From assembly GCA_024279425.1 (NCBI GenBank), contig JAJRRO010000018.1, forward strand, positions 1-64,000: a DNA stretch of 64,000 bases, read 5' to 3'. The position numbers and the translations under genes are program-made. The stretch comes from Bacteroidota bacterium. GTDB taxonomy: Bacteria; Bacteroidota; Bacteroidia; Flavobacteriales; Flavobacteriaceae. Shown here piece after piece: positions 49,933 through 64,000 of this stretch. Positions within the stretch are counted from its first letter, which is position 1. Every line of letters starts with the position of its first letter. The notes under the pieces were generated by a model. That model did not search any database and was not told the origin of the DNA. It was given only the letters and a program-made list of their open reading frames with translations.

Positions 49933-50343
49933 CTATTTGTTTTTTCGATATCCAGAGTAGGGTAAATTTTGATATTCATCAATTGTACCCGCTTCCCATC
50001 CAGAAGAAGGGGCCAAGATGGCCAAAAACTCCAAAGCTTCATCACCTACATTGAAAGTTCCGTGTACAACATCGGGGTCTATGTAAACGGAGTCCCCTGC
50101 TTTCAAAATTTGCTTTTCATCCCCTACCCATTGCTCAGCCATACCTTTGAGGATATAAAGAATTTCATTCATTTCTGGATGTCTATGGAAATTGTGCATG
50201 CCTCCAACAGGCATTATCACTTTGACCATATAGGTATCGGCCTGCTTGGTAATATCAGCATTAAAATGCCAATAATGATCACGTCCTAAAACATTTTCCT
50301 TAATCGTTTCCGAATCCTTGACAAATTTCCAGTACCTACTCAT
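49933..50343 (-). CDS. Cupin domain protein
   Basis: 136 residues, one small beta-barrel. Metal-site motif NFHRHPEMNEILYILKG (HxH...E) and the second motif DPDVVHGTFN (His). No signal peptide. It is 5 bases downstream of the PEP-hydrolase-family gene and faces the same way as the Tm-1-like gene, so the three probably form one operon. The small molecule it acts on is unknown; isomerase, dioxygenase or binding roles are all possible for this fold. Confidence 0.88.
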   Translation of the reverse strand: MSRYWKFVKDSETIKENVLGRDHYWHFNADITKQADTYMVKVIMPVGGMHNFHRHPEMNEILYILKGMAEQWVGDEKQILKAGDSVYIDPDVVHGTFNVGDEALEFLAILAPSSGWEAGTIDEYQNLPYSGYRKNK

Positions 50344-50348
50344 ATCAA

Positions 50349-51212
50349 CTATTTATTCAGCGTAAGAGACGTGAATTGTCTTGTTAGATCAGTCAATGAT
50401 TGCTCTACTCCCATTCTCTCCAGAGAAGAAGCTCCCACAAACCCATGTACATCAGTTTTATCCAAAATTATCCTTACATCTTCCGGTGTATTAACCGGAC
50501 CGCCGTGTGCAAGGAAGAATGTATCGGGGTTCGATTTTCTTACCGCCTCAATAATCTCTTGTGTTTTATCAATTGCAAAATCCATTGAGCGGGTCGCTCC
50601 TGTAACTCCGATAGAACCACCTATCGTTGTACCCACATGTGAAATAATTGCATCCGCTCCCACGTCGGCCATTTGCACTGCCTCTTCAGGTTCAGCCACG
50701 TACACTATAGAGAACAAATCCATTTTAGTTGCCAATTCGACCATATCCACTTCCTTCTGAAAACCCATACCGGTTTCCTCTAGTACATTTCTGAAATGAC
50801 CATCCACAATACAATGGGTAGGGAAATTGTTCACCCCTGAAAAGCCCATGTCCTTTACTTGACCAAGAAAATGCCACATTCTTCTTCGTGGATCAGTACC
50901 ATGTACACCGCAAATAACAGGAATCTCTTTGACCACAGGTAGTACTTCGAATTCCCCTATTTCCATGGCCACTGCATTGGCATCACCATAGGCCATCAAT
51001 CCGGCCGTTGAACCGTGACCGGACATTCTGAACCTCCCCGAATTGTAGATTATAAGCAAATCAGCACCTCCTTTTTCAATAAACTTGGCACTAATACCTG
51101 TGCCGGCACCAGCTGCAATAATCGCTCTTTTTTGGTCCAATGTCGCTTGCAACCTATCTCTTACTTCTTGTTTTGTATAGGGATTTCCTATTCCTGTCCA
51201 CGGATTTGGCAT
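50349..51212 (-). CDS. Phosphoenolpyruvate hydrolase family TIM-barrel protein
   Basis: 287 residues. It starts MPNPWTGIGNPYTKQEVRDRLQATL. Family landmarks are IIAAGAGTGISAKFIEKGGADLLIIYNSGRFRMSGHGSTAGLMAYGDANA, PVICGVHGTDPRRRMWHFLGQV, GFSGVNNFPTHCIVDGHFRNVLEETGMGF, SHVGTTIGGSIGVTGATRSMD and FLAHGGPVNTPEDV. The family is related to the PEP mutase/isocitrate lyase fold. In plants and fungi the same domain is fused to a Tm-1-like domain, which is the next gene upstream here. The substrate is unproven. Confidence 0.88.
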   Translation of the reverse strand: MPNPWTGIGNPYTKQEVRDRLQATLDQKRAIIAAGAGTGISAKFIEKGGADLLIIYNSGRFRMSGHGSTAGLMAYGDANAVAMEIGEFEVLPVVKEIPVICGVHGTDPRRRMWHFLGQVKDMGFSGVNNFPTHCIVDGHFRNVLEETGMGFQKEVDMVELATKMDLFSIVYVAEPEEAVQMADVGADAIISHVGTTIGGSIGVTGATRSMDFAIDKTQEIIEAVRKSNPDTFFLAHGGPVNTPEDVRIILDKTDVHGFVGASSLERMGVEQSLTDLTRQFTSLTLNK

Positions 51213-51386
51213 CTTATGTATGTTTTACTGTTTTGTAAATATTCTTTTATTTAAGCAAAGAAGCAACATATTTTACTCGAAATCCAGCTGTTTTGCTCCC
51301 AAAAACAACTGTATCATACCGTATTCTTACCTATTTTATACTATCATAGTCATAAAACAGATAGAAAATGCAGCTTTGATAATTAC

Positions 51387-52613
51387 CTAATCGTGCATAA
51401 GTTTCAATAGTTCCGCCACGGCGATACCTGCAAATTTGGCATCGTTGATATCGGTATCCACTTCAATGACAGGTATGCTTGGATTAAGGTGTTGTCGGAT
51501 AGCATCAAATAAAACGCTGTCCACATGCGGAGCATAGAAAACCTCTCCTTTTTTACTGATTTTGGAGATTCCCTTCAATGGCAGTACTACTACTACTTTT
51601 CCTTTGGAATGGTTTAATTTTTCAGCAAAGGATTTACCGAGTCCTTTGTTTTCCTCTTCATTGGTGCGCATGAGGGTCACATTAGGATCCCAACTGAACA
51701 GTTGTCTTTGTTGATATTCTTTCGGGACAGTTTTCAAAGCGCCAAAATTGACCATATCCAAACAACCGGGAACGACTACTTGAGGTATGCCCATTTTACC
51801 TGCTGCGGTTAATCTTTCCGGACCTGCACTACAAATACCTCCAAATAAATCATCGGCCAACTCAGTGGTGGTTATATCCAAGACTGCATCAAAACAATTG
51901 TCGAGCACCAGGTCCTCCATAGTTTTCCCACCTGGCCCAACGGCATGAAAAGAAAGAACATCATACCCTTTGGCCCGTAATATTTTGGAACATTGGTCAA
52001 CACAGGGAGTGGTATTGCCGAAGATGCTTATTGCAATACTACCTTTGGTTTTTAATGGGTCTGTATCAACGACGTTCATCATTCCAAATAAGGCACCAGC
52101 AGCCTGATTGATAAGAATGCGACTAATTTTATTTAGTCCAGCTACGTCAACAATGGAAGGCATCAAAGTAATATCCTTGCTTCCTATATGTTCGGAAAGG
52201 TCTTTGGTAGCCAGCGTAGTCAAACACAACTTGGGAATGCCAAAGGAAATTTTTTTGACAGCGGATAAAAAAATATAAGTTCCACCGCCACCGCCCATAC
52301 CAATAACTCCATCGATTTTTTTTTGGGACATCAGCTCCGAAATAACCAGGGAAGCGCCCATCCCCATTTTTTCCAATGCCTGTCCCCTATCTCCATCCTT
52401 TCTCAGACTGGAAAGGGATGTTCCGGCGGCTTCTGCAATTTCAGTGGATTCGATGGTTACCGGAAAAAGTTTCGTCGTCCCCAAAATCCCGGTATTTATG
52501 GCTATGACTTTGATGTTTTGCTCAACCAAACAGCTGTGGAGAAAATCAAAGTCTTCACCCTTAGTATCAAAACAACCTATCATTAATACGGTCTTGGCAG
52601 ATGGCATCGGCAC
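51387..52613 (-). CDS. Tm-1-like ATP-binding domain protein (UPF0261)
   Basis: 408 residues. Landmarks are TVLMIGCFDTKGEDFDFLHSCLVEQ near the N-terminus, KIDGVIGMGGGGGTYIFLSAVKKISFGIPKLCLTTLATKDLSEHIG, PSIVDVAGLNKISR, ISIFGNTTPCVDQCSKIL, SFHAVGPGGKTMEDLV, VVPGCLDMVNFG and LPLKGISKISKKGEVFYAPHVDSVLFDAI. An in-frame ATG two codons in (52607) is an alternative start. The family is named after the tomato virus-resistance protein Tm-1; its bacterial function is not known. It is the first gene of a trio with the PEP-hydrolase-family and cupin genes, after a 174-base gap. Confidence 0.88.
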   Translation of the reverse strand: MPMPSAKTVLMIGCFDTKGEDFDFLHSCLVEQNIKVIAINTGILGTTKLFPVTIESTEIAEAAGTSLSSLRKDGDRGQALEKMGMGASLVISELMSQKKIDGVIGMGGGGGTYIFLSAVKKISFGIPKLCLTTLATKDLSEHIGSKDITLMPSIVDVAGLNKISRILINQAAGALFGMMNVVDTDPLKTKGSIAISIFGNTTPCVDQCSKILRAKGYDVLSFHAVGPGGKTMEDLVLDNCFDAVLDITTTELADDLFGGICSAGPERLTAAGKMGIPQVVVPGCLDMVNFGALKTVPKEYQQRQLFSWDPNVTLMRTNEEENKGLGKSFAEKLNHSKGKVVVVLPLKGISKISKKGEVFYAPHVDSVLFDAIRQHLNPSIPVIEVDTDINDAKFAGIAVAELLKLMHD

Positions 52614-53018: not shown

Positions 53019-53687
53019 ATGAAAACACTCACAAAATACTGGTTTCTAGAAGGATTCAGTCTTTTTGAAAAACTAGGAATGTCAACCATGATGCAAATGT
53101 GTGAGCTGCTTGATATGGATCAAATTGAAAAAGGGGAAATAATCGAAATAGGCAACAGAAGCAAGAAATGCATCTTCTTTTTAAAAAAGGGCTCGGTCAA
53201 GATTATTGATTCCAGGAACAATATCGTAAAGTATGTAGTAAAAATGGGGAACATTTTCGGAGAACTTTCACTCTACGACGAACAGGTGGCATCAGAGGAA
53301 AAAGCATCTGCTCTTGAAGATTCAATAATCTGCTATATAGAATCTGATATGATGGAAGAGTTAATGGAAAAACACAAATCGCTTAAAAATGGTGTTCTTA
53401 AAGTATATGGATTGCGGATTAGAAAGCTGGAAAGTAGACTCCAGGACCTCATATACAAAGACAACAAAACAAGAATAGCAGAATTTGTTAGCTTTTATGT
53501 GAAAGAATTTGGTATTGATAAACCAGATAGGATCGAGGCTAAAAACCTACTGTCACATAAAGACATTGCAAATCTCACAAATACTTCTAGACAGACCGTA
53601 AACAATTTGCTGAGCAATATGCGGAAAAATAAGGAAATCGATTATGACTCAAAATACATCTCGGTAATAAAAAGGGGGGGGGACTAA
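53019..53687 (+). CDS. Crp/Fnr family transcriptional regulator
   Basis: 222 residues. The N-terminal cyclic-nucleotide-binding-type barrel is KGEIIEIGNRSKKCIFFLKKGSVKIIDSRNNIVKYVVKMGNIFGELSLYDEQ. A long dimer helix follows (EKHKSLKNGVLKVYGLRIRKLESRLQDLI), then the helix-turn-helix LLSHKDIANLTNTSRQTVNNLLSNMRKNKEI. No Fnr-type Cys cluster is visible at the N-terminus, so iron-sulfur sensing is unlikely. The gene ends in a run of nine G (53674-53682), where slippage would change the last few residues. It stands upstream of the 53.8-64 kb genes and may regulate them. Confidence 0.92.
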   Translation: MKTLTKYWFLEGFSLFEKLGMSTMMQMCELLDMDQIEKGEIIEIGNRSKKCIFFLKKGSVKIIDSRNNIVKYVVKMGNIFGELSLYDEQVASEEKASALEDSIICYIESDMMEELMEKHKSLKNGVLKVYGLRIRKLESRLQDLIYKDNKTRIAEFVSFYVKEFGIDKPDRIEAKNLLSHKDIANLTNTSRQTVNNLLSNMRKNKEIDYDSKYISVIKRGGD

Positions 53688-53764: not shown

Positions 53765-56700
53765 ATGATGAAAATTCTTAAATTATTGAAAACTTGGTTT
53801 GTACTTTCCATATTCCTTCTTGTTTTAAAAGGGCTCTCTCAAGAAATTGAAAAATCTATTTACATTACCGCAAACACCTGGGACATTTCCAATACCGAGG
53901 TGCTTTCCCAAATTGCAAAGGATTCAAAATCCGTTCAAAACCCCATGTTGCTTATCCTAGGTAATGCCACACCCAAGAAAGCTTTTGGAAATGCACTGGA
54001 CAAACAGCTTCAAATAATCAAGGGATTTAAGAAAGATGCCATATTTCTGCCAGGAAACCATGAATGGTCCAATAAAGGACATCGAAGGGTAAAGGATATA
54101 GAAAAGCACATCAAAAAAAATAGTAAAGCAAGGTTTTATCCCCATAATGGCGAACCTATAAGACACTATGAGATCAACGAAAATATGGTAATGATCACCG
54201 TAGATTCCCAGTGGTTCCTCGAAGATTGGAACAAGGATACCTATATCAACCAAGAAACTGAAATTCATAACAGAACACTGTTTTTTTTGGAATTTGAAAA
54301 TCAAATAAAAAAGGCACAGGGCAAAATAAAGATCATTCCCATCCATCACCCCATTAAAACATATACGAGGCAAGTGTTAATAGGTAATACTGCCGGGCCA
54401 ACAGTGCAAGATTACCAAAACAAGCAATATCGGGTATTAAGAAATAGGCTAAAGACCATTGCAAGACAAAATGAAGATATCATTTTTGTATCTGGCCATG
54501 ACAAAAACCTGCAATATATAAACAACAGGGTACCCCACCTGGTCAGCGGAGCGGCAGGAACCACTAAAAATGTAAAAGATGGAGGTGATGGCAATTTCAC
54601 CACTTCCAAAAACGGTTATGCAAGGTTAGGTATTAATACGGATGGAAAAGTTACCGCACACCTTTTGACAGTACAAAATGGAGGTTCCAAATCGGTTTTC
54701 AATACCACAGTCTTAGAAGGTGGTAAGCCAAAGACCAATACATCTTTTACCTCAAGAGATACTTTTCCAAAAACACTTTCCGCATCCATATACACCAAAG
54801 CCGATACGGACAAAAATGGTTTTTATAAAACATTATGGGGAAATCCTATAGAGAATTCTACAGTAAACCTGTAAATGCCCAAGTGGTTTTATTGGACACC
54901 CTAATGGGCGGACTTACTCCTATAAAACGAGGAGGTGGTCAACAATCAAAATCGCTACGGTTGGAAGATAGTTCAGGGAAGCAATTTGTAATGCAAGCAC
55001 TTAAAAAAAGTACTATAAAGTTTTTGCAGGCCAATGCGTTTCAGGACGTTTATATTGGCAATGCGCTGAACGACAGCGCGGTGGATAAGTTTTTAGCTGA
55101 TTTTTACACTACCTCCCACCCCTATACCCCTTTTGCCATTGGCGAATTGGTGGACGCTATAGATGTTTCCCATACAAACCCAAAACTATACTACGTACCT
55201 AAACAAAATGTACTCGGTATTTTTAATGATGAATTTGGGGACGAGTTGCATATGATCGAGGAACATGTGGGTGATACCCAAATACAATTGAAAAGTTTTG
55301 GCAACCCAAAAAAGATTCTGAGTACGGCAGATGTCTTACAGGAGATACATAAGTCTGGCAAATCGCTAATAGATGAACCTTCCTATATCAGGGCACGGCT
55401 TTTTGACATATTATTGGGCGATTGGGATCGCCACGAGGATCAATGGCGGTGGGCACTATTTGAAAAAGAAGATGGTACTGAGATCTGCAAGCCCATACCC
55501 AGAGATCGGGACCAGGCATTTTCTAAATATGATGGCGCGTTGATTTCTCTTCTTACCAGAATAATTCCAGGTTTACGTAAAATGCAAACCTATGATAAAG
55601 ATTTAAGAAGTGTAAAATGGTTTGCGAGTTCCCCCTATCATTTGGACCTAACCCTAGTCAATAACTCCGATTGGGAAGAGTGGCGAAAACAAGCCAAACA
55701 TATTCAAGCGAATGTTACCGATACTGTTATAGAAAAGGCCTTCAAAGCCATTCCAGAAGAAATCAAAGGTCAAACCATTGCCGACATAAAAATGAAGTTG
55801 AAGAGCAGGCGGGACAATCTAATGAAAATTGCCAGAGATTACTATGCCTATTTGAACAAGTTCGAGGTTGTCGTAGGAACACAAAAAGCGGATGATTTTA
55901 AAATCACAAGGCTTCCGGGTGGTAAGACCACCATAGACATCCACCGGAAGGATCTGGGAATTCTCAAAAGGACATTCTCCAATAATATAACCAAAGAGAT
56001 TTGGATTTACGGACTTGATGGAAAAGACACTTTTATCGTAGATGGAAAAGGGGATGAACTTATCACCTTAAAAATAATTGGCGGCAAGAAGAATGACACC
56101 TATGATTTTAAAAACACTAATAGCGTTAAACTCTACGACTATAAGAGCAAAGAAAATACGATTGTAAATAGGCGGTCGAAAAAATGGCTCGTAGATGATT
56201 ATGGGATTAACAACTATGACTCCCACAAGGTTAAGCATAATTTCAATCAACTACTGCCAATTCTAGCGGTCAATCCTGATGATGGTTTGCGTGTTGGAAT
56301 ATTCAGTAACCATACTTACTATGGATTGCAACGTAATCCTTTTACCCAAAAGCATACAATAAGTGCGTCTTATTACACGGGTACTTCTGGATACCACTTA
56401 TCGTATAAGGGGGAATTTTCCAATATTTTCCATAATTGGAACTTTGGGATAGAAGGACTTTATACCAGCCCTAATTTCACCACCAACTTTTTTGGTTTTG
56501 GTAACGAGACCCTATATGATAAAGAGGAAGTAGAACTTGACTTCAATCGGGTTCGTATCAGGAAATGGAATGCTGTTGTTTCCTTAATCTACAGAGGTAG
56601 GAGTAGAGGCTCATTTCATATTAAACCCTTGATTGAATCCTTTGATGTTGAAAATACCCAAGAACGTTTTATTGCAGGCCTACCAACTAGCAGTGCCACT

Positions 56701-57284
56701 TTTGAAAAGCAAATTTATGGTGGTGCCGAGGTGGTCTATAAATTTAAGGATAAGGATAACTTGGTATTTCCAACCTTGGGACTGGATGTAAGTCTTACAG
56801 CGGGTTATAAAACAAATATTGATAATACGGATGCTAAAAATAGTTTTGTCTATTTTAAGCCTGAATTGGTGCTTGATCAAAAATTGACCAAAAGTGGATC
56901 TTTGGTATTGGCCACTAAAATTAGTAGGGACATTATTGTGGGCGATGATTTTGAATTTTACAATGCAGCAGAAATCGGTGGTATAAATGGTTTAAGAGGC
57001 TTTAGAAATGAACGTTTTATTGGGAAGCAATCCTTTTATCAAAACACCGATTTACGTATTCCTCTGGGAGGATTAAAAACTAGTTTTATTCCCATTCGAT
57101 TTGGGGTTTCGGGCAGTTTTGATTATGGTCGTGTTTGGCTTCAAAATGAAAACTCGAACAGATGGCACAACAGCATTGGTGGCTCCCTATGGGTTAGTGG
57201 CGTTGACGCAATCTCTGCTAATATCGGATATTTAACAGTACAGATGGGGGCAGAATAGTGTTTGCTCTTGGATTTTCATTTTAA
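53765..57284 (+). pseudogene. Metallophosphoesterase/outer-membrane barrel protein, broken by two -1 frameshifts
   Basis: Three reading segments make one ancestral ~1170-residue protein. Segment 1 (53765-about 54838) has a signal peptide (MMKILKLLKTWFVLSIFLLVLKGLSQ) and a phosphoesterase domain (FLPGNHEW, PIHHPI, SGHDKNL). Segment 2 (about 54835-57233) has GGLTPIKRGGGQQSKSLRLED, LLGDWDRHEDQWRW and a BamA-type surface-antigen barrel. Segment 3 (about 57234-57284) would end in RIVFALGFSF, the expected terminal strand. One G is missing in the G4 run at 54837-54840 and one T near 57231-57233. As written, the first frame stops at 54874 (369 residues) and the second runs 54835-57258 (807 residues). 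Sequencing error in homopolymers, true decay or recoding are all possible. Confidence 0.75.
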
Positions 57285-57312: not shown

Positions 57313-58926
57313 ATGAAAAAACCCATTGCAATTGCCCAAATCAACCAATTAGAAAATAAAAAACCCACGGCTGCCTTAGTAAATGGACTCGATTTGGTTA
57401 TAGTGAAGTTCAATGAAGATATCTCTGTACTCTATGGAAGATGTTTGCACAGAGGCGCACTCATGTCGGACGGCCGAATTGACGGGCATAACCTTGTTTG
57501 TGGTGTTCACGGTTGGGATTATCGTTATGACACAGGGGTTTCCGAATATAACAACAATGAAGTATTACATAAATTCAACATTAAAATAGAAGCTAATTCG
57601 CTCTATGTTGATGAAGCTGAAATAAACGCTTACTTAGAAGAATATCCGCAACCTTTTAACAGGGACGAATACCTTGGGGTTTATGCAGATACCCATCCTG
57701 AGGACACCGAACCCTACACAAGTTATATTAAGGAACTTGCAAAGAATGGACTTAAAAACTTAGGGCATCATGGCTTTTCTGCTTCCATGGGAGTGGATCG
57801 GAATACCTTGCCCAAATGGAGCGACATTCAATTTTTACCTGCACAATTGGCATCAAGGCCCTTGTTGGACCATGAAGGGGTAGCAACCAAGGTAGTCATT
57901 GGTTCAAGGGCAAAAAAACCCTTGATCCTGGACATACCGCTGTTTGTAAGCGACATGAGCTTTGGGGCCTTATCCAAGGAAGCCAAAATAGCGTTATCCA
58001 AAGGAGCTGAATTGGCGGGTACCGGTATTTGTTCCGGTGAAGGAGGAATGCTTCCCGAAGAACAGGCTAACAACAGTAGGTACTTTTATGAATTGGCTTC
58101 CGCCCAGTTTGGGTTTACATGGGACAAATTGGACAATGTACAAGCCTTTCACTTTAAAGGTGGACAGGGGGCGAAAACGGGTACAGGAGGGCACTTGCCG
58201 GGCAACAAAGTGAGTAAGGAAATTGCGAAAGTCCGTGGGTTGGAACAAGGACAAACCGCCATTTCACCGGCAACTTTTCCAGATTTTCATGGCGTTGATG
58301 ATTTTAAGTCCTTCGCCGCAAAAGTGAGAGAACGTACAGGAGGAATTCCTATTGGATTTAAGATAGCAGCCAGCCACGTGGAAAAGGACATTCAGTTTGC
58401 ACTAGATGTTGGGGTAGATTATATTATACTTGACGGTCGTGGTGGTGGAACAGGTTCTGCACCTACGATACTGCGTGATAATATCAACGTGCCCACGATA
58501 CCGGCTTTAGTTAGAGCACGTAAATATTTAGATAAAATGGGAGCAACTGATGTAACCCTAATCATTACAGGAGGCTTACGGATTGCTGAAGATTTTGGCA
58601 AAGCATTGATGTTAGGCGCAGATGCCATTGCCATATCAAATTCTGCATTGCAAGCAATAGGTTGTTTAGGAATGCGAGCCTGCGGGAGTAACAATTGTCC
58701 GGTAGGAATAGCAACTCAAAAAGAGTCTTTAAGAAGCAGACTAATTATCGATTCATCTGCCCAGCAATTACACAATTATTTTGACGCTACTAACAATCTT
58801 ATCAAAGTAATCGCCAGAGCGTGCGGTCACGATGATATTTCAAAATTCAATTATGATGATCTATCAACTTTTAGTCATGATATGCATCGATTAACGGGAA
58901 TTGGTTACGCGGGAGTGAACGCCTAA
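57313..58926 (+). CDS. Rieske-glutamate synthase-like fusion (FMN-binding, [3Fe-4S])
   Basis: 537 residues. An N-terminal Rieske [2Fe-2S] domain has Cys44/His46 (CLH) and Cys63/His66 (CGVH). From ~150 to the end is the FMN-binding glutamate synthase domain: PLFVSDMSFGALSKEAKIALSKGAELAGTGICSGEGGMLPEE, KGGQGAKTGTGGHLPGNKV, IILDGRGGGTGSAP and the [3Fe-4S] Cys set C451, C457, C462 (CLGMRACGSNNCP). There is no glutaminase domain. Such stand-alone proteins are thought to move electrons or aminate a substrate other than 2-oxoglutarate; here the Rieske domain suggests a dedicated electron supply. First gene of a six-gene operon. Confidence 0.9.
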   Translation: MKKPIAIAQINQLENKKPTAALVNGLDLVIVKFNEDISVLYGRCLHRGALMSDGRIDGHNLVCGVHGWDYRYDTGVSEYNNNEVLHKFNIKIEANSLYVDEAEINAYLEEYPQPFNRDEYLGVYADTHPEDTEPYTSYIKELAKNGLKNLGHHGFSASMGVDRNTLPKWSDIQFLPAQLASRPLLDHEGVATKVVIGSRAKKPLILDIPLFVSDMSFGALSKEAKIALSKGAELAGTGICSGEGGMLPEEQANNSRYFYELASAQFGFTWDKLDNVQAFHFKGGQGAKTGTGGHLPGNKVSKEIAKVRGLEQGQTAISPATFPDFHGVDDFKSFAAKVRERTGGIPIGFKIAASHVEKDIQFALDVGVDYIILDGRGGGTGSAPTILRDNINVPTIPALVRARKYLDKMGATDVTLIITGGLRIAEDFGKALMLGADAIAISNSALQAIGCLGMRACGSNNCPVGIATQKESLRSRLIIDSSAQQLHNYFDATNNLIKVIARACGHDDISKFNYDDLSTFSHDMHRLTGIGYAGVNA

Positions 58927-58935
58927 AAAAAAAGA

Positions 58936-59679
58936 ATGGAAAAAATGATGTATTTGGCTGTCCAATACTTGGCAGCAGCAGGAATAAGTTTTGTAGCAAA
59001 AAAGGATGACGATAGCCATACCAATGTGGGTTTTTCAATAGAAAAGACGTGTATGGAAACCCATCCGCTTTCTGAAAATGGAGATATACTTTCTTTAGGT
59101 TATAAAAATTTCAGTTTGAATTGGAACTCTAAAAGTGGTAGTATCTCTTTCCTTTTGGATGGAGCTACTCACGCGAATGTTTTGAATTGGCTTAGGGAAA
59201 CTTCAAAAACCTTTTTAAACAAGTCATACTCTTATGAATTTCACTATGACCTTCCTTACGAGATGACAGATGATTTTAAATTCAAATTAGTTGATACAAA
59301 CAGATTATCCGAATTATTGCAATTACGAATTCTTACTCAGTCAACATTGGAACAAACCCTTAAAGAAGGAAATCTAAAATCGCCGATACGGGTTTGGCCA
59401 CATCATTTTGATAGCGGAGCCTATGCAGGTTTACATAAGAACATTGCAATAGGTTTTGGGCTTGCCGTACCCGATACCATGTGTAATGAACATTATTTTT
59501 ACATCAGCGGTTATAAAGGTCATGACACCCTAAATACCGAAGGTTTTTCACCACTTTCAAAGGGCGAATGGAAAAATGATGGTTTTAAAGGGGCTATACT
59601 TCCTGCGGCAACAGTTGATAAGTCAAAAGCCGTATTGTTTTTTAAAGAAGCCATTGATAACTACAAAACAGTAACCTAA
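58936..59679 (+). CDS. Conserved protein of unknown function in Rieske operon
   Basis: 247 residues, no signal peptide or membrane helix. Features are a first half with small-domain pattern (GYKNFSLNWNSKSGSISFLLDGATHANVLNWLRE) and a His/Asp-rich second half: SPIRVWPHHFDSGAYAG, GFGLAVPDTMCNEHYFYISGYKGHD. The WPHHFD motif recalls DUF5996-like proteins, and the several His, Asp, Cys and Glu residues could bind metal, but I do not recognise the family with confidence. It starts 9 bases after the glutamate synthase-like gene and overlaps the next by one base (TAATG), so it is a fixed part of the operon. Confidence 0.8.
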   Translation: MEKMMYLAVQYLAAAGISFVAKKDDDSHTNVGFSIEKTCMETHPLSENGDILSLGYKNFSLNWNSKSGSISFLLDGATHANVLNWLRETSKTFLNKSYSYEFHYDLPYEMTDDFKFKLVDTNRLSELLQLRILTQSTLEQTLKEGNLKSPIRVWPHHFDSGAYAGLHKNIAIGFGLAVPDTMCNEHYFYISGYKGHDTLNTEGFSPLSKGEWKNDGFKGAILPAATVDKSKAVLFFKEAIDNYKTVT

Positions 59680-60344
59680 TGGCAACGCAAGCACTTTCCC
59701 TAGAGTCATTTAAAAAAATGGATTATTTAGCCGTTGAAAAATACGGTTTGCCCATTGAATTAATGATGGAAAATACAGGATTGCAACTAGCACGATTAAC
59801 TGCCTCGAAGGCAACCAGAGACTCCATAATTACTATCGGTATTGGAAATGGAAATAATGGCGGTGGTGGCTTGGCAGCTGCCAGAAGACTGGCCGCTTGG
59901 GGTTTTGATGTTTTCTTGGATATACCTGTTGATATTACCAAAACACTGCCAAAAGTCCAGTTGAAAAGGGCACTTTTATTCGGGGCAAAAATAGAAACAA
60001 TAACAGAGCCCGATATATGGGTGGATGCCTATTTGGGGTTTTCACAAAGATTGCCCCTTAGTTCAGCTTTTTTGGATAGGATAAGCATAGCAAACAATTC
60101 ATTGGCATTCAGAATCTCTTTGGATATTCCTATTGGTATTTCTGACAATTTAAGTCAACCCATGTTCAACGCAGATCAAATACTGACCTTAGCGGCCCCA
60201 AAAGACATTTTAAATGTGCTTCCAAAGAAAACGGATATTCTAATCGCAGATATTGGAATTCCTCTATCCATTTACAAAAAATTAAAGATTCCCATGCCCA
60301 GTTTTTTTGAGCATCAGATTATAAAATCCACTAACGAAAAATAA
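59679..60344 (+). CDS. YjeF N-terminal domain protein (NAD(P)H-hydrate epimerase-like, diverged)
   Basis: 221 residues, the epimerase domain only, without the ADP-dependent dehydratase half found in many bacteria. YjeF_N landmarks are MDYLAVEKYGLPIELMMENTGLQLARL, GIGNGNNGGGGLAAARRLAAWGFDV, WVDAYLGFSQRLPL and RISLDIPIGISDNL. The usual GGDG of the NADPHX site is GGGG here, losing an Asp; the catalytic-region Asp in VDAYLGF remains. It may repair NAD(P)H hydrates formed by the redox enzymes of this operon, or bind a different ligand. Coupled by overlap to the previous gene. Confidence 0.82.
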   Translation: MATQALSLESFKKMDYLAVEKYGLPIELMMENTGLQLARLTASKATRDSIITIGIGNGNNGGGGLAAARRLAAWGFDVFLDIPVDITKTLPKVQLKRALLFGAKIETITEPDIWVDAYLGFSQRLPLSSAFLDRISIANNSLAFRISLDIPIGISDNLSQPMFNADQILTLAAPKDILNVLPKKTDILIADIGIPLSIYKKLKIPMPSFFEHQIIKSTNEK

Positions 60345-60353
60345 CAACTTCTC

Positions 60354-62303
60354 ATGGAAAAAAAAGTCATTTGGCATAAAGTATTGGACAACAGAGAACT
60401 CTTAAAAGAAGGTCGTGTTATGACTGTAACAGCCGCCCATAAAGGTATCTGTCTGACACATTTTGAAGGTAAGTTTTCTGCACTTGACAACAAATGCCCG
60501 CATCAAGGAGGGCCTTTAGGCGAGGGCTCTATAGAGAACGGTTTGCTCCGCTGTCCATGGCATGGTTGGGATTTCGACCCCTGCACAGGTATTCCTCCAG
60601 GGGGCTTTGACGACGGGGTAGAAACCTTTCCAACCAAGGAAGAAAACAAAGCCATTTACGTTGGAATGAAGGAAGAAGTGAAACATGAAGCAACCGTATC
60701 TGATATCATGGTAGAAACTATGGTCAATTGGGGCGTAACTAAGGTCTTTGGAATGGTGGGGCACTCTAATCTCGGCTTTGCCGATGCCATGAAACGACAG
60801 GAAGAAAAAGGCAACCTCAATTTTTATGGCATTCGCCATGAGGGAGCTGCCGCTTTTGCGGCTTCCGCTTATGGGAAATTAACGGGAAAACCTGCAGCTT
60901 GTTTCACCATTGCAGGGCCTGGAGCTACTAATTTATATACAGGCATGTGGGATGCAAAAGTAGATAGGGCTCCTTTTTTGGCATTGACCGGACAAGTGGC
61001 CACTCAGGTCGTGGGAACGGGAAATTTTCAGGAAGTCGATTTAGTACAGGCTTTTAACACCGTCGCCGAATTCAATCAACGGGTTCAGGGCAATAGTAAA
61101 CATGCCGAACTCATGTCACTTGCCATTAAACATGCCATCTTAAAGCGGGATGTTTCCCATTTGACATTTCCAGATGAAGTACAAGAACTACAAGCTCCCG
61201 TCAATTCCAAAGCACAGCACTCCACCAACAGAATTACCCCCATGGAAATTGCCCCTCCAAAAGAAATGGCAGACAAGGCCGTAGACCTTATCCAAAATTC
61301 GAAACGTCCGTTAATTATAATGGGACATGGGGCACGGGCACATAAAAAGTCAATTGTTGCTTTTGCAGAAAGTTTAAACGCTGCTGTAGTCACTACCTTT
61401 AAAGGGAAAGGGCTGATAGCCGACAGTCACCCTCTAGGCTGCGGTGTTTTAGGGAGAAGCGGAACACCTATCGCCTCTTGGTTTATGAACGAAGCCGATT
61501 TGTTAATTGTCTTTGGTGCTTCTTTCTCCAATCACACAGGAATAACATATAAAAAACCCACGATTCAGATAGATTTTGACCCTTTAGCACTGAGTAAGTT
61601 CCATGAAGTGGATGTGGCCGTTTGGGGTGAAATCTCAAGAACATTGGAAATTTTATCTTCGGAATTGAAAGGAAAAACAAGCACAATTGACCAAAAAGAG
61701 GAAATCGAGGAGCGTTGGAACCTATGGAAAGCTGAAAAAGAAAAACGCCTCACGGAAACTTCTGAAAACGGATTGAGTTCAATAGCAATCTTTGAAGCCA
61801 TGAACAAAGTAGCTCCAAAAGATGCTGTAATGTGCGTAGATGTCGGTAACAACGCCTACTCTTTTGGACGTTATTTTGAACCGGAACAACAAGATTTTTT
61901 AATGTCAGGATACTTGGGTTCAATAGGCTTTGCACTGCCAGCGGCAATGGGTGCTTGGGCAGCCGTTGGTAATACACGACCTGTAGTGGCCGTAGCTGGT
62001 GATGGTGGATTATGCCAGTACCTCGCCGAAATAACCACTTTAGTAAAATACAATATGCCAGTGAAATTGATTGTCTTGAACAATCATGAATTAGGGAAAA
62101 TATCCAAAGAACAAAGAGCGGGCGAATTCGATGTATGGAAAACATCGCTTTCAAACCCTAATTTTTCTGAATACGCCATTTCATGTGGAGCTTGGGGTAA
62201 ACGTGTTGAAAAAGAAAAAGATATACAAACTTCAATGAAAGAATTATTTAATCATTCAGGCCCAGGTTTATTGGAATTTATTGCCGATGTAAGCCTTATT
62301 TAA
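60354..62303 (+). CDS. Rieske-thiamine diphosphate enzyme fusion (pyruvate oxidase/acetolactate synthase-like)
   Basis: 649 residues. The N-terminal Rieske domain (~1-108) has Cys48/His50 (CPHQ) and Cys67/His70 (CPWH). A full ThDP enzyme follows: PYR domain with catalytic Glu163 (IRHEGAAAFAASAYGKLTGKPAACFTIAGPGATNL), central domain (RPLIIMGHGARAHKKSI) and PP domain with the GDGG motif at 549-552 and the Asn pair at 576-577. The family decarboxylates 2-oxo acids; whether the product is an acetyl-type donor, an acid or a condensed ketoacid cannot be told. A Rieske domain on such an enzyme suggests electrons leave through it. It overlaps the K+ channel gene by one base. Confidence 0.9.
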   Translation: MEKKVIWHKVLDNRELLKEGRVMTVTAAHKGICLTHFEGKFSALDNKCPHQGGPLGEGSIENGLLRCPWHGWDFDPCTGIPPGGFDDGVETFPTKEENKAIYVGMKEEVKHEATVSDIMVETMVNWGVTKVFGMVGHSNLGFADAMKRQEEKGNLNFYGIRHEGAAAFAASAYGKLTGKPAACFTIAGPGATNLYTGMWDAKVDRAPFLALTGQVATQVVGTGNFQEVDLVQAFNTVAEFNQRVQGNSKHAELMSLAIKHAILKRDVSHLTFPDEVQELQAPVNSKAQHSTNRITPMEIAPPKEMADKAVDLIQNSKRPLIIMGHGARAHKKSIVAFAESLNAAVVTTFKGKGLIADSHPLGCGVLGRSGTPIASWFMNEADLLIVFGASFSNHTGITYKKPTIQIDFDPLALSKFHEVDVAVWGEISRTLEILSSELKGKTSTIDQKEEIEERWNLWKAEKEKRLTETSENGLSSIAIFEAMNKVAPKDAVMCVDVGNNAYSFGRYFEPEQQDFLMSGYLGSIGFALPAAMGAWAAVGNTRPVVAVAGDGGLCQYLAEITTLVKYNMPVKLIVLNNHELGKISKEQRAGEFDVWKTSLSNPNFSEYAISCGAWGKRVEKEKDIQTSMKELFNHSGPGLLEFIADVSLI

Positions 62304-62956
62304 TGAAGCAGAAAATAAACACCAGCCTAATAGATTATAAATATGTAATCGCATTGATCAGTGTGTTTAATTTTTTACTGACACCAATTCACATTGCAAT
62401 AAGTGGGTTTGACTCAGCATATGTGGTGGTAATCAATTTCACCATAGTTATTTTAGGCAGCTCATTAATAGCGTCAACAAAAATAGCAAAGTCAATTACC
62501 TATGTTCTTGGATCAGTAGTCTTATTCTTTATATGGTTGGAGTTTTCTAATGGCGATAACAGAGCCATTATGTTTACCAGGTTGGTTGTTTCCCTAGCTC
62601 TTTTTATCAATTTCTGTATGCTGTTACTCAAACAGCTTCGGAAAATCAAAAAAGTAAACCTTCAATTTATTCTAATGCCAATTTTAGGTTTTTTGTATTT
62701 GGGAATCATTGGAGGCATTCTTTTTGAAGTGATGCACTTTTTTGATTCCAGCTCGTTTACTCGTATTCAGGGATTTTCCGGTTTCAGTTTTTACTACTTC
62801 AGTTTTATAAGTATTACCACGGTTGGTTATGGTGACATTACGCCTTTAACCTCACCAGCACAGTCATTAACCCTGGTTATGAATATTATTGGCCAATTTT
62901 ACCTTGCCATTATAATAGCAGTCTTTGTTGGTAAATATATTAATGTAAAATCTTGA
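62303..62956 (+). CDS. Two-pore-helix potassium channel family protein
   Basis: 217 residues with about six hydrophobic segments. The C-terminal third is an Ion_trans_2 pore: FYYFSFISITTVGYGDITPLTSPAQSLTLVMNIIGQFYLAIIIAVFVGKYI, with the K+ selectivity filter TVGYGD. No charged S4-like helix and no RCK domain are visible, so gating is not apparent. It overlaps the Rieske-ThDP gene (TAATG) and lies 4 bases before the antiporter, so it is co-expressed with both. Confidence 0.92.
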   Translation: MKQKINTSLIDYKYVIALISVFNFLLTPIHIAISGFDSAYVVVINFTIVILGSSLIASTKIAKSITYVLGSVVLFFIWLEFSNGDNRAIMFTRLVVSLALFINFCMLLLKQLRKIKKVNLQFILMPILGFLYLGIIGGILFEVMHFFDSSSFTRIQGFSGFSFYYFSFISITTVGYGDITPLTSPAQSLTLVMNIIGQFYLAIIIAVFVGKYINVKS

Positions 62957-62960
62957 AACC

Positions 62961-64000
62961 ATGCTACAATCCTTCAGTATTATTTTTTCGATAGCTGCTT
63001 TTTTCAGTTTTGTAAATTACAAATGGTTAAGGCTACCGGCGACCATAGGACTCCTGTTGATGAGCTTGGTAGCGATGATCATCATTACTTTAAGTAAAAA
63101 CATCTTCCCTGAATTTTACATATTCTTTTGTGATATTGTCACGGGTTCAGATTTTAAAACATTACTCTTGGACGGAATTCTTAGTTTTTTACTTTTCGCA
63201 GGGGCTTTGCACGTAAACATTCAAGATCTGGAAAAAGAAAAATGGTCTATACTATTGTTCGCTACCCTTAGTGTATTGATATCAACATTTATGGTCGGTG
63301 GGTTGATTTTTGGAGCGTCAATGCTTATAGGAGTTGAACTGCCATTTGTCCATGCTTTATTATTCGGAGCTCTAATCTCCCCTACCGATCCCATTGCTGT
63401 GATGTCCATCCTTAAAAAAGCGAACATATCTAAAAGCTTGGGCATTAAAATTGAAGGTGAATCCCTATTTAATGATGGCATTGGTGTGGTTGTTTTCTCA
63501 GGAATACTTATTGTGGCCGGTATTGGAGAACATACAGCTGAAAACTCATTAGGTGTTCAGATAGGAAAATTGTTTTTGGAAGAAGCAGTGGGAGGAATAG
63601 TATATGGAGTATTATTAGGGGTTATCGGTTACGCCTTAATAAAGTCGGTAAAAGAAAATCCTCAACTAGCTGTAATGATAAGTCTTGCCATTGTGATGGG
63701 TGGATATGCCCTTGCCTCCATTATCCATGTTTCAGGTCCCTTGGCAATGGTGGTATCTGGAATGATTATAGGGAATAGATTGCATTTAGCAACCGGTAAG
63801 GGGGCCACAAGAAAAATGCTCAATGAGATATGGGAGGTATTGGATGATGTTTTCAACGGCATTCTGTTTGTCCTCATCGGACTGTCCATTCACCTTTTGA
63901 AATTTGATATGAATTATTTAACCTTAGGTCTTTTGGCCATATTCATTGTACTAATAGCCCGTTTTATATCCGTACTATTACCCTACTCCCTCCTAAAACA
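62961..64000 (+). CDS. CPA1 family Na+/H+ antiporter, N-terminal part (3' end outside window)
   Basis: The frame opens at the ATG at 62961 (MLQSFSIIFSIAAFFSFVNYKWLRLPATIGLL) and is still open at base 64000, giving 346 complete codons. Helices alternate with short loops. Motifs of sodium/proton exchangers of the NhaP/NHE type are GALISPTDPIAVMSILKKA and KIEGESLFNDGIGVVVF, the latter carrying the ion-binding Asp of the ND pair. It would exchange Na+ (or K+) for H+ across the inner membrane. It follows the K+ channel gene by 4 bases. Confidence 0.93.
   Translation, partial: MLQSFSIIFSIAAFFSFVNYKWLRLPATIGLLLMSLVAMIIITLSKNIFPEFYIFFCDIVTGSDFKTLLLDGILSFLLFAGALHVNIQDLEKEKWSILLFATLSVLISTFMVGGLIFGASMLIGVELPFVHALLFGALISPTDPIAVMSILKKANISKSLGIKIEGESLFNDGIGVVVFSGILIVAGIGEHTAENSLGVQIGKLFLEEAVGGIVYGVLLGVIGYALIKSVKENPQLAVMISLAIVMGGYALASIIHVSGPLAMVVSGMIIGNRLHLATGKGATRKMLNEIWEVLDDVFNGILFVLIGLSIHLLKFDMNYLTLGLLAIFIVLIARFISVLLPYSLLK

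Follow-up and report, generated by a model that had tools for sequence, protein, structure and literature searches.

A Rieske-fused thiamine diphosphate enzyme linked to one of two exchangeable flavoproteins: a candidate redox module of bacteria and haloarchaea

The first 64,000 bases (the window) of the 145,197-base contig JAJRRO010000018.1, from the 5.27-Mb genome of a Flavobacteriaceae bacterium (GCA_024279425.1), end inside a unit of six tightly packed genes (57313-64202). Two of these genes encode unrelated catalytic cores that each carry an N-terminal Rieske domain, RiGlt with a glutamate synthase (GltS)-type core and RiTPP with a thiamine diphosphate (ThDP) enzyme. Here we report that the two fusions are genetically linked, and that each sampled genome with RiTPP has either a GltS-type protein or a flavoprotein resembling flavin mononucleotide (FMN) reductases (FMNred), the swap between the two having occurred repeatedly. 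The set may represent a redox module that moves between genomes, ThDP passing electrons of a 2-oxo acid to the fused Rieske centre and from there to an interchangeable FMN protein; we hold this reading tentatively and put its chance somewhat short of even.

RiGlt (57313..58926, on the plus strand as are all genes of the unit) matched Pfam Rieske at 4.3e-12 and Glu_synthase at 1.2e-85, and its FMN/[3Fe-4S] domain is not accompanied by an amidotransferase domain. RiTPP (60354..62303) matched Pfam Rieske and the N, M and C models of TPP_enzyme, and is PoxB-like. As claimed in the original prediction, the Cys/His ligands of both Rieske domains are kept: C48, H50, C67 and H70 of RiTPP were invariant in 83/83 alignment rows, window included, and the RiGlt motif was present in 73 of 75 rows (not de-duplicated; absent from L074 and L091, L numbers denoting loci and G numbers genomes). 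The CX5CX4C motif of the [3Fe-4S] cluster was found in all 75. Nine bases after RiGlt begins UNK (58936..59679), a DUF5996-related protein with DDSHTN and WPHHFD motifs conserved in the family alignment, overlapped by one base by a YjeF_N-type protein (59679..60344) with the fold of the NAD(P)HX-epimerase family. RiTPP follows after another 9 bases and overlaps by one base a potassium-channel-type protein (62303..62956; Pfam Ion_trans_2 6.6e-10; filter TVGYGD), and after 4 bases comes a CPA1-like antiporter of the Na+/H+-exchanger family (62961..64000, on to contig position ~64202; 413 residues; Pfam Na_H_Exchanger 6.5e-48), full length in L002, the window's own fragment. Open reading frames (ORFs), gaps (9, −1, 9, −1 and 4 bases in the ORF list) and Pfam matches thus agreed with the predicted six-gene operon, of which the antiporter runs on beyond the window.

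Linkage was measured in even draws, not complete sets, of 299 genomes of the family (the window's genome included) and 392 genomes of the phylum. In the family sample 29 genomes had RiTPP and 39 had RiGlt, its Rieske part being included in 37; the two coincided in 23 genomes, against 3.8 expected (Fisher 9e-19), in agreement with the supposed co-occurrence of the fusions above chance. Both members of each of the 23 pairs shared a contig, at distances of 23-8962 bp (median 1255). Ten of the 11 phylum-sample genomes with RiTPP also had RiGlt, which was detected with its Rieske part in 49/392 genomes, eight more matching only the GltS part. Chance assemblage was ruled out by the gene linkage together with these co-occurrence statistics. 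Scattering of the genes without shared neighbours, set beforehand as the outcome that would speak against a common unit, was not seen; yet in five of the ten genomes of the phylum sample that carry the pair, RiGlt and RiTPP sat on different contigs. The proposed association of the set was borne out for UNK, as detailed below, and, in the collection of loci (84, L002 included; L081, with RiGlt and RiTPP, is absent from the gene calls), for the antiporter, which was in a same-strand run with RiTPP in 29/83; the K+ channel was less frequent (8/83). The proposed link to ion balance depends on the antiporter, the channel being less constant.

The flavoprotein slot was filled in one of two ways. Judged by close homologues, 33 of the 41 RiTPP genomes had the GltS-type protein and eight had FMNred; none had both and none had neither. 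Exactly one of RiGlt and close FMNred was present in 29/29 family genomes with RiTPP (23 and 6; p 2e-6) and in 37/37 of family and phylum samples taken together (30 and 7; p 1e-7), the threshold for close FMNred having been set after the score gap was seen (84% vs 55% identity in the family). The six family RiTPP genomes lacking RiGlt all held FMNred with 87-100% identity to the query, a level found in 0/23 genomes with RiGlt; in G592, FMNred was on another contig than RiTPP. Among eight further phylum genomes, seven had RiGlt and no FMNred match (E<=1e-20), and the eighth had a 58% FMNred and no RiGlt. Four genomes added from the 25 tree rows whose locus had neither flavoprotein label held RiGlt elsewhere (one, 80%), a Rieske-less GltS homologue (two, 63-64%) or FMNred (one, 58%), both being found in none. 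At the level of the 84 loci, RiGlt was present in 47 (L074 with a 34% homologue only), FMNred in 11 and both in 0 (expected 6.2; p 4.6e-5); in these 11 loci, which lack RiGlt, FMNred was of FMN_red type and mostly of 252 residues.

The swap between GltS-type protein and FMNred occurred repeatedly. On a quick RiTPP tree the flavoprotein label changed nine times, at least six changes being forced by well-supported branches, a scatter close to that of shuffled labels (mean 10.3); among independent pairs, 0 changed the same way and an average of 5.5/6 in opposite ways (median p 0.03, range 0.03-0.125). One exchange took place at the same chromosomal position as in the window: L009, an 11.6-kb contig of a Maribacter metagenome-assembled genome, carries FMNred-UNK-RiTPP flanked by cupin, TIM-barrel and UPF0261 genes 93%, 99% and 92% identical to the left neighbours in the window, RiGlt being possible elsewhere in that genome. 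In the window these three neighbours lie left of the operon at 49933-52613.

The gene set is distributed widely and unevenly. By tblastn against 72,556 plasmid records, the whole RiTPP fusion was found in five records at 52-57% identity, four from haloarchaea and one from Mycobacteroides abscessus; the next match was at 37% and began only at RiTPP residue 117. All three plasmid records with full-length RiGlt also carry RiTPP. A scan of genome contigs gave at least 572 candidates, a number that is not a count of fusions, as the scan patterns sit in the Rieske domain; 80 loci were kept (61-86% identity), of which 79 align to residue 649 and one, L083, ends at a contig edge. The hosts are mostly Bacteroidota, others being Acidobacteriota, Cyanobacteriota, Chlorobiota, Calditrichota, Rhodothermota and Shewanella hanedai. 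RiTPP was present in only 11/392 phylum-sample and 29/299 family-sample genomes, and in 0 of two other genomes of the window's genus. This patchy presence and the plasmid location suggest that the RiTPP set was spread by gene transfer.

On one archaeal plasmid RiTPP, antiporter, K+ channel and RiGlt are all located within 8 kb. The Halorarius halobius plasmid carries, in this order, a histidine kinase gene, RiTPP, a sodium:proton antiporter, then a potassium channel and two small genes (these three on the opposite strand), and finally RiGlt; its antiporter matched the window-type profile (2.7e-52), and its channel, with filter TLGLGD, gave no match to the window-type profile. One gene separates the YjeF homologue from RiGlt on a Halorubrum plasmid, with RiTPP 17 kb off, and one gene separates it from RiTPP on a Haloferax larsenii plasmid. 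From these gene orders, most gene types of the window recur together in Archaea; UNK was not found in five haloarchaeal stretches (L003, L004, L006, L135 and L136). On the haloarchaeal plasmids of L004 and L135, the genes after RiGlt are those of a dihydrofolate reductase (in L135 of HdrA type, below cut-off), an M20 peptidase and TauE, and one with the annotation merA.

What RiGlt and FMNred have in common, by family, is FMN and not amination, and the set is therefore read as an electron-transfer module. RiTPP would bind a pyruvate-like 2-oxo acid on ThDP, decarboxylate it, and hand on single electrons via its fused Rieske [2Fe-2S] cluster, probably by way of flavin adenine dinucleotide (FAD), to a physically associated FMN protein. 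This partner would be either RiGlt, entered through its own Rieske domain, or the NADPH-dependent-FMN-reductase-like protein. UNK would be a companion of the flavoprotein and not of RiTPP. The antiporter and K+ channel would keep charge and pH in balance, while the YjeF protein with its altered motif would have lost the normal epimerase chemistry and serve to bind a nucleotide or a damaged cofactor. Where an MsrQ-like haem/Rieske membrane protein is present, it would connect the chain to the quinone pool. Such a module may serve under salt or oxidative stress. The potential of a soluble-type Rieske centre is higher than those of GltS FMN and [3Fe-4S] centres, and for this reason the direction of electron flow is not decidable from sequence. 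PMC8097209 gives −240 mV for GltS FMN and −280 mV for its [3Fe-4S] cluster.

Several observations weigh against an electron-transfer module. Co-occurrence alone would not demonstrate electron transfer, and the separation of RiTPP from RiGlt on different contigs in half of the phylum-sample pairs loosens the linkage. Both flavoproteins also occur without RiTPP (RiGlt in 14/37 and FMNred in 9/15 family genomes), indicating a separate role for each. Taken by itself, the exclusion was not significant across the 299 genomes of the family (15 and 39 genomes, 0 with both, expected 2.0, p 0.12); it rests on the RiTPP-carrying genomes. At E<=1e-40, three of 29 family RiTPP genomes (G582, G656 and G667) hold an FMN_red homologue of 46-51% identity in addition, G128 and G673 have an FMNred of no more than 58% identity, and the GltS-type partners of G670 and G672 are devoid of the Rieske domain. 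The Haloferax larsenii plasmid gave no RiGlt match (E<=1e-60), and its 18-kb locus no FMNred, the chromosome not having been searched. The invariant Lys582 of RiTPP, at the position of LpPOX Phe479, may mean a substrate other than pyruvate, and the neighbouring stress genes described below are each present in a minority of loci.

Some of these points would fit an account that we regard as quite improbable, in which the Rieske domains are sensors or structural modules rather than wires, and the genes share their regulation but have no catalytic connection. The two Rieske-less GltS partners, similar homologues of the Vibrio group and the split of the fusions between contigs favor it; the invariance of the Rieske ligands across bacteria and archaea and the one-of-two partner rule argue against it. 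The RiGlt homologues without Rieske domain (62-65% identity) were found in four Vibrio-group and Pseudoalteromonas records, including L137 and L138 (Vibrio fortis and Photobacterium). In V. fortis, the only one of these records with annotated neighbours, the gene stands among different ones (LysR, GNAT and DMT genes).

In an alternative account, RiTPP electrons would allow RiGlt to form glutamate out of 2-oxoglutarate and ammonia, and the channel and antiporter would regulate K+ and Na+, leading to a build-up of K+-glutamate during salt stress. Many hosts are marine or hypersaline according to record titles, and the antiporter runs with RiTPP as often as noted above. RiGlt also keeps Lys288 (75/75) and Arg308 (74/75), aligned with GltB residues that we take to be 2-oxoglutarate ligands. 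The Gln of GltB that presumably is a further such ligand is, however, His294 in 72/75 RiGlt rows, the glutaminase domain is missing, the channel is absent from most loci, and in 8/41 genomes an FMN_red-type protein without GltS core is present instead. Because of this last replacement, amination is unlikely as the common function, and the 2-oxo acid oxidation/amination route of the original prediction is weakened; we judge the glutamate route as a whole to be unlikely.

Called an unknown protein in the original prediction, UNK is, judged by sequence comparison, probably a distant DUF5996 relative: five of 30 family members match Pfam PF19459. The window's own copy does not, nor did it match another Pfam family. 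Strong UNK relatives (E<1e-50) were found in 33/299 family genomes (39 at E<=1e-15; the statistics below do not count the six weaker ones, with E 1e-15 to 1e-50). Of these 33 genomes, 31 carry RiGlt or FMNred, against 5.7 expected (p 6e-26). The distance between UNK and flavoprotein was 9-21 bp in 21/31 genomes and within 114 bp in 25/31, also where RiTPP is absent; UNK was 9-114 bp from RiGlt in 19/22 and 9-21 bp from FMNred in 6/9. In G182 the order RiGlt, UNK, YjeF, PycTM is that of the window minus RiTPP, channel, antiporter and a DUF6268 gene. Since UNK adjoins either flavoprotein even without RiTPP, as in G182, the flavoprotein and UNK look like an inner core, to which RiTPP and the transporters would be an added cassette. 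The structure of UNK predicted from 30 sequences had a predicted local distance difference test score (pLDDT) of 96.1. Foldseek against the PDB gave no match at E<=0.001 (query TM-score 0.11-0.24 in the ten best rows), a missing match that would not prove a new fold, and the comparison with PDB sequences gave a chance-level match only (E 0.025).

The pairing of UNK with either flavoprotein in the absence of RiTPP is also consistent with a repair or protection module, in which flavoprotein and UNK detoxify an electrophile or oxidised cofactor, and RiTPP serves only as an electron source once damage has hit the normal supply of NAD(P)H. In addition to the YjeF homologue, Pfam detected EgtB/EgtD, rhodanese, DUF427, TANGO2 and YHS genes in RiTPP loci, those of redox-repair type within 10 kb including DUF427 in 11 loci and EgtD in six; genes that we take to be MsrA (three loci) and redoxin (three loci) were also near. 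An MsrQ-like partner in some loci, and genes annotated mercury(II) reductase in haloarchaeal loci, favor the same account. EgtB/EgtD, DUF427 and YHS, with the presumed MsrA and redoxins, point to oxidative stress. None of these genes is universal, each occurring in a minority of loci, and we consider a repair module somewhat unlikely. In L040, L055, L058, L068 and L075, EgtB/EgtD-like, rhodanese and DUF427 genes were clustered with RiTPP and UNK, together with what presumably are MsrA and redoxin genes. Malic enzyme was near RiTPP in five loci, a hint of pyruvate supply. Like the neighbours of redox-repair type, it also speaks for the electron-transfer module.

The MsrQ-like partner is a third Rieske protein, with a Ferric_reduct domain (FRD-Rieske). 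It was located within 10 kb of RiTPP in 21/84 loci, its Rieske motif being present in 21/21, and in a same-strand run in 13/83. It is usually followed (16/20) by a protein with a conserved Cys motif and no Pfam or family match, as at L015:12550-14373, and is fused with it in L064 (6901-8772). In the window's genome no match over both parts of FRD-Rieske was found. Its limited presence near RiTPP and this missing match ruled it out as a constant part of the set.

The unit probably starts upstream of RiGlt. A Crp/Fnr-type protein (53019..53687, plus; Pfam cNMP_binding and HTH_Crp_2) is the probable regulator, in line with the Crp-family regulator predicted there; same-strand upstream homologues were found in 15 loci. 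It is followed by a phosphoesterase/Omp85-like gene, and this order is kept in several relatives, e.g. L031, L036, L038, L051 and L052. The phosphoesterase-like part (53765..54874, plus) was recognized by ORF comparison with relatives; it had no Pfam match, and its GNHE and GHD motifs are presumably those of metallophosphoesterases. The Omp85-like beta-barrel part (54835..57258, plus) matched NCBIfam Omp85_fam below cut-off (3.8e-15), with homologues in 13 loci. In relatives such as L036, L038 and L052 the gene is a single ORF of ~1180 residues, and the two overlapping ORFs at 53765-57258 represent a frameshift, a genuine split or a sequence error. Beyond the antiporter follow a DUF6268 protein and, as last gene of the unit, a PycTM-domain protein (L002:3141-3755, contig 65140-65754). 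Scans for promoters and terminators did not exceed chance, apart from terminator-like sites in L002 (8 vs 3.9), and were not used.

A PycTM gene was near RiTPP in 11 loci, L002 counted, and in L043 an HD-PycTM protein lies beside Crp on the opposite strand. An anti-phage system was considered and appears unlikely from a PADLOC scan of ten proteins: two PycTM-domain proteins matched 2TM effectors, Crp gave weak TIR-effector matches over its nucleotide-binding region, and seven gave none. No match to a pyrimidine cyclase, the partner of the PycTM effector in Pycsar, was obtained among the ten, the wider genome not having been searched for a cyclase.

If the electron-transfer module is real, it would be an unusual arrangement, in which the oxidation of central-carbon compounds is wired to flavoproteins with neither free ferredoxin nor NAD(P)H involved, with two unrelated cores, and a third membrane protein in some hosts, each fused to Rieske domains. 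The one-of-two partner rule offers a strong clue from genetics and opens the function to testing, as the two flavoproteins should complement one another. The gene set also gives a context to DUF5996-type proteins, glutaminase-free GltS-domain proteins and the altered-motif YjeF paralogue. The literature search found no pathway with this gene set, as the original prediction had supposed, and no publication on fusions of Rieske domains with ThDP or GltS cores. That prediction had missed the exchange of flavoproteins, FRD-Rieske, the changed motif of the YjeF protein, the invariant Lys at the ThDP site and the archaeal copies. It is possible, though we lean against it, that all this amounts to an electron-transfer system not described before, which gene transfer has carried through bacteria and archaea, comprising a Rieske-wired ThDP 2-oxo acid oxidase, an interchangeable flavoprotein slot, a third Rieske-haem protein in some hosts, and UNK as the missing catalytic or docking partner.

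Each component resembles a known system and departs from it. FRD-Rieske shares with MsrQ, the haem subunit of MsrPQ, a Ferric_reduct domain (3e-11 with the MsrQ model), but falls below cut-off (43 vs 130 bits), carries a C-terminal Rieske domain and is followed by the Cys-motif protein. The nearest solved relative of FMNred is the FMN_red-type PDB entry 5MJI, 'BRAMP domain protein' (E 1.2e-35), a name for which no paper was found in the literature search. The operon YjeF protein matched Pfam YjeF_N (5.8e-22) as NAD(P)HX epimerase (NnrE) does, but fell just under the TIGR00197 cut-off (85.9 vs 88.6), and Gly replaces the Asp of NNGGDG in 14/14 operon-type sequences, as befits the diverged NAD(P)H-hydrate epimerase predicted. 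A canonical bifunctional Nnr with NNGGDG is encoded elsewhere in the window's genome, which rules out the operon protein as the housekeeping copy. RiGlt shares with GltB and ferredoxin-dependent glutamate synthase the FMN/[3Fe-4S] domain and the motifs CX5CX4C, SGEGG and GAKxGxGG; in contrast to GltB, it has an N-terminal Rieske domain in place of the glutaminase domain, and Pfam detected only Rieske and Glu_synthase, with a sub-threshold FMN_dh match.

For RiTPP the nearest PDB entries are 3EYA/3EY9, PoxB. The N, M and C ThDP domains are full length as in LpPOX and E. coli PoxB, and E163 (the ThDP Glu), F225/Q226, V497, E586 and D550 align with LpPOX E59, F121/Q122, V394, E483 and D447, of which E163, F225, Q226 and E586 are invariant in 83/83 rows. 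Arg368, kept in 82/83, aligns with LpPOX Arg264, a position that presumably takes part in FAD binding in the M domain and is Leu in two other comparators. RiTPP is nonetheless far below the NCBIfam POX equivalog cut-offs (best 406 vs 742 bits), and differs from PoxB and Lactobacillus pyruvate oxidase in its N-terminal Rieske domain and gene context. Phe479 of LpPOX, which lines the substrate pocket, is Phe in PoxB too, and Met and Gln in two further POX-like comparators; in RiTPP it is replaced by Lys582 in 83/83 rows, a difference that suggests, from the alignment, that the substrate bears one more negative charge or that the acceptor step is altered.

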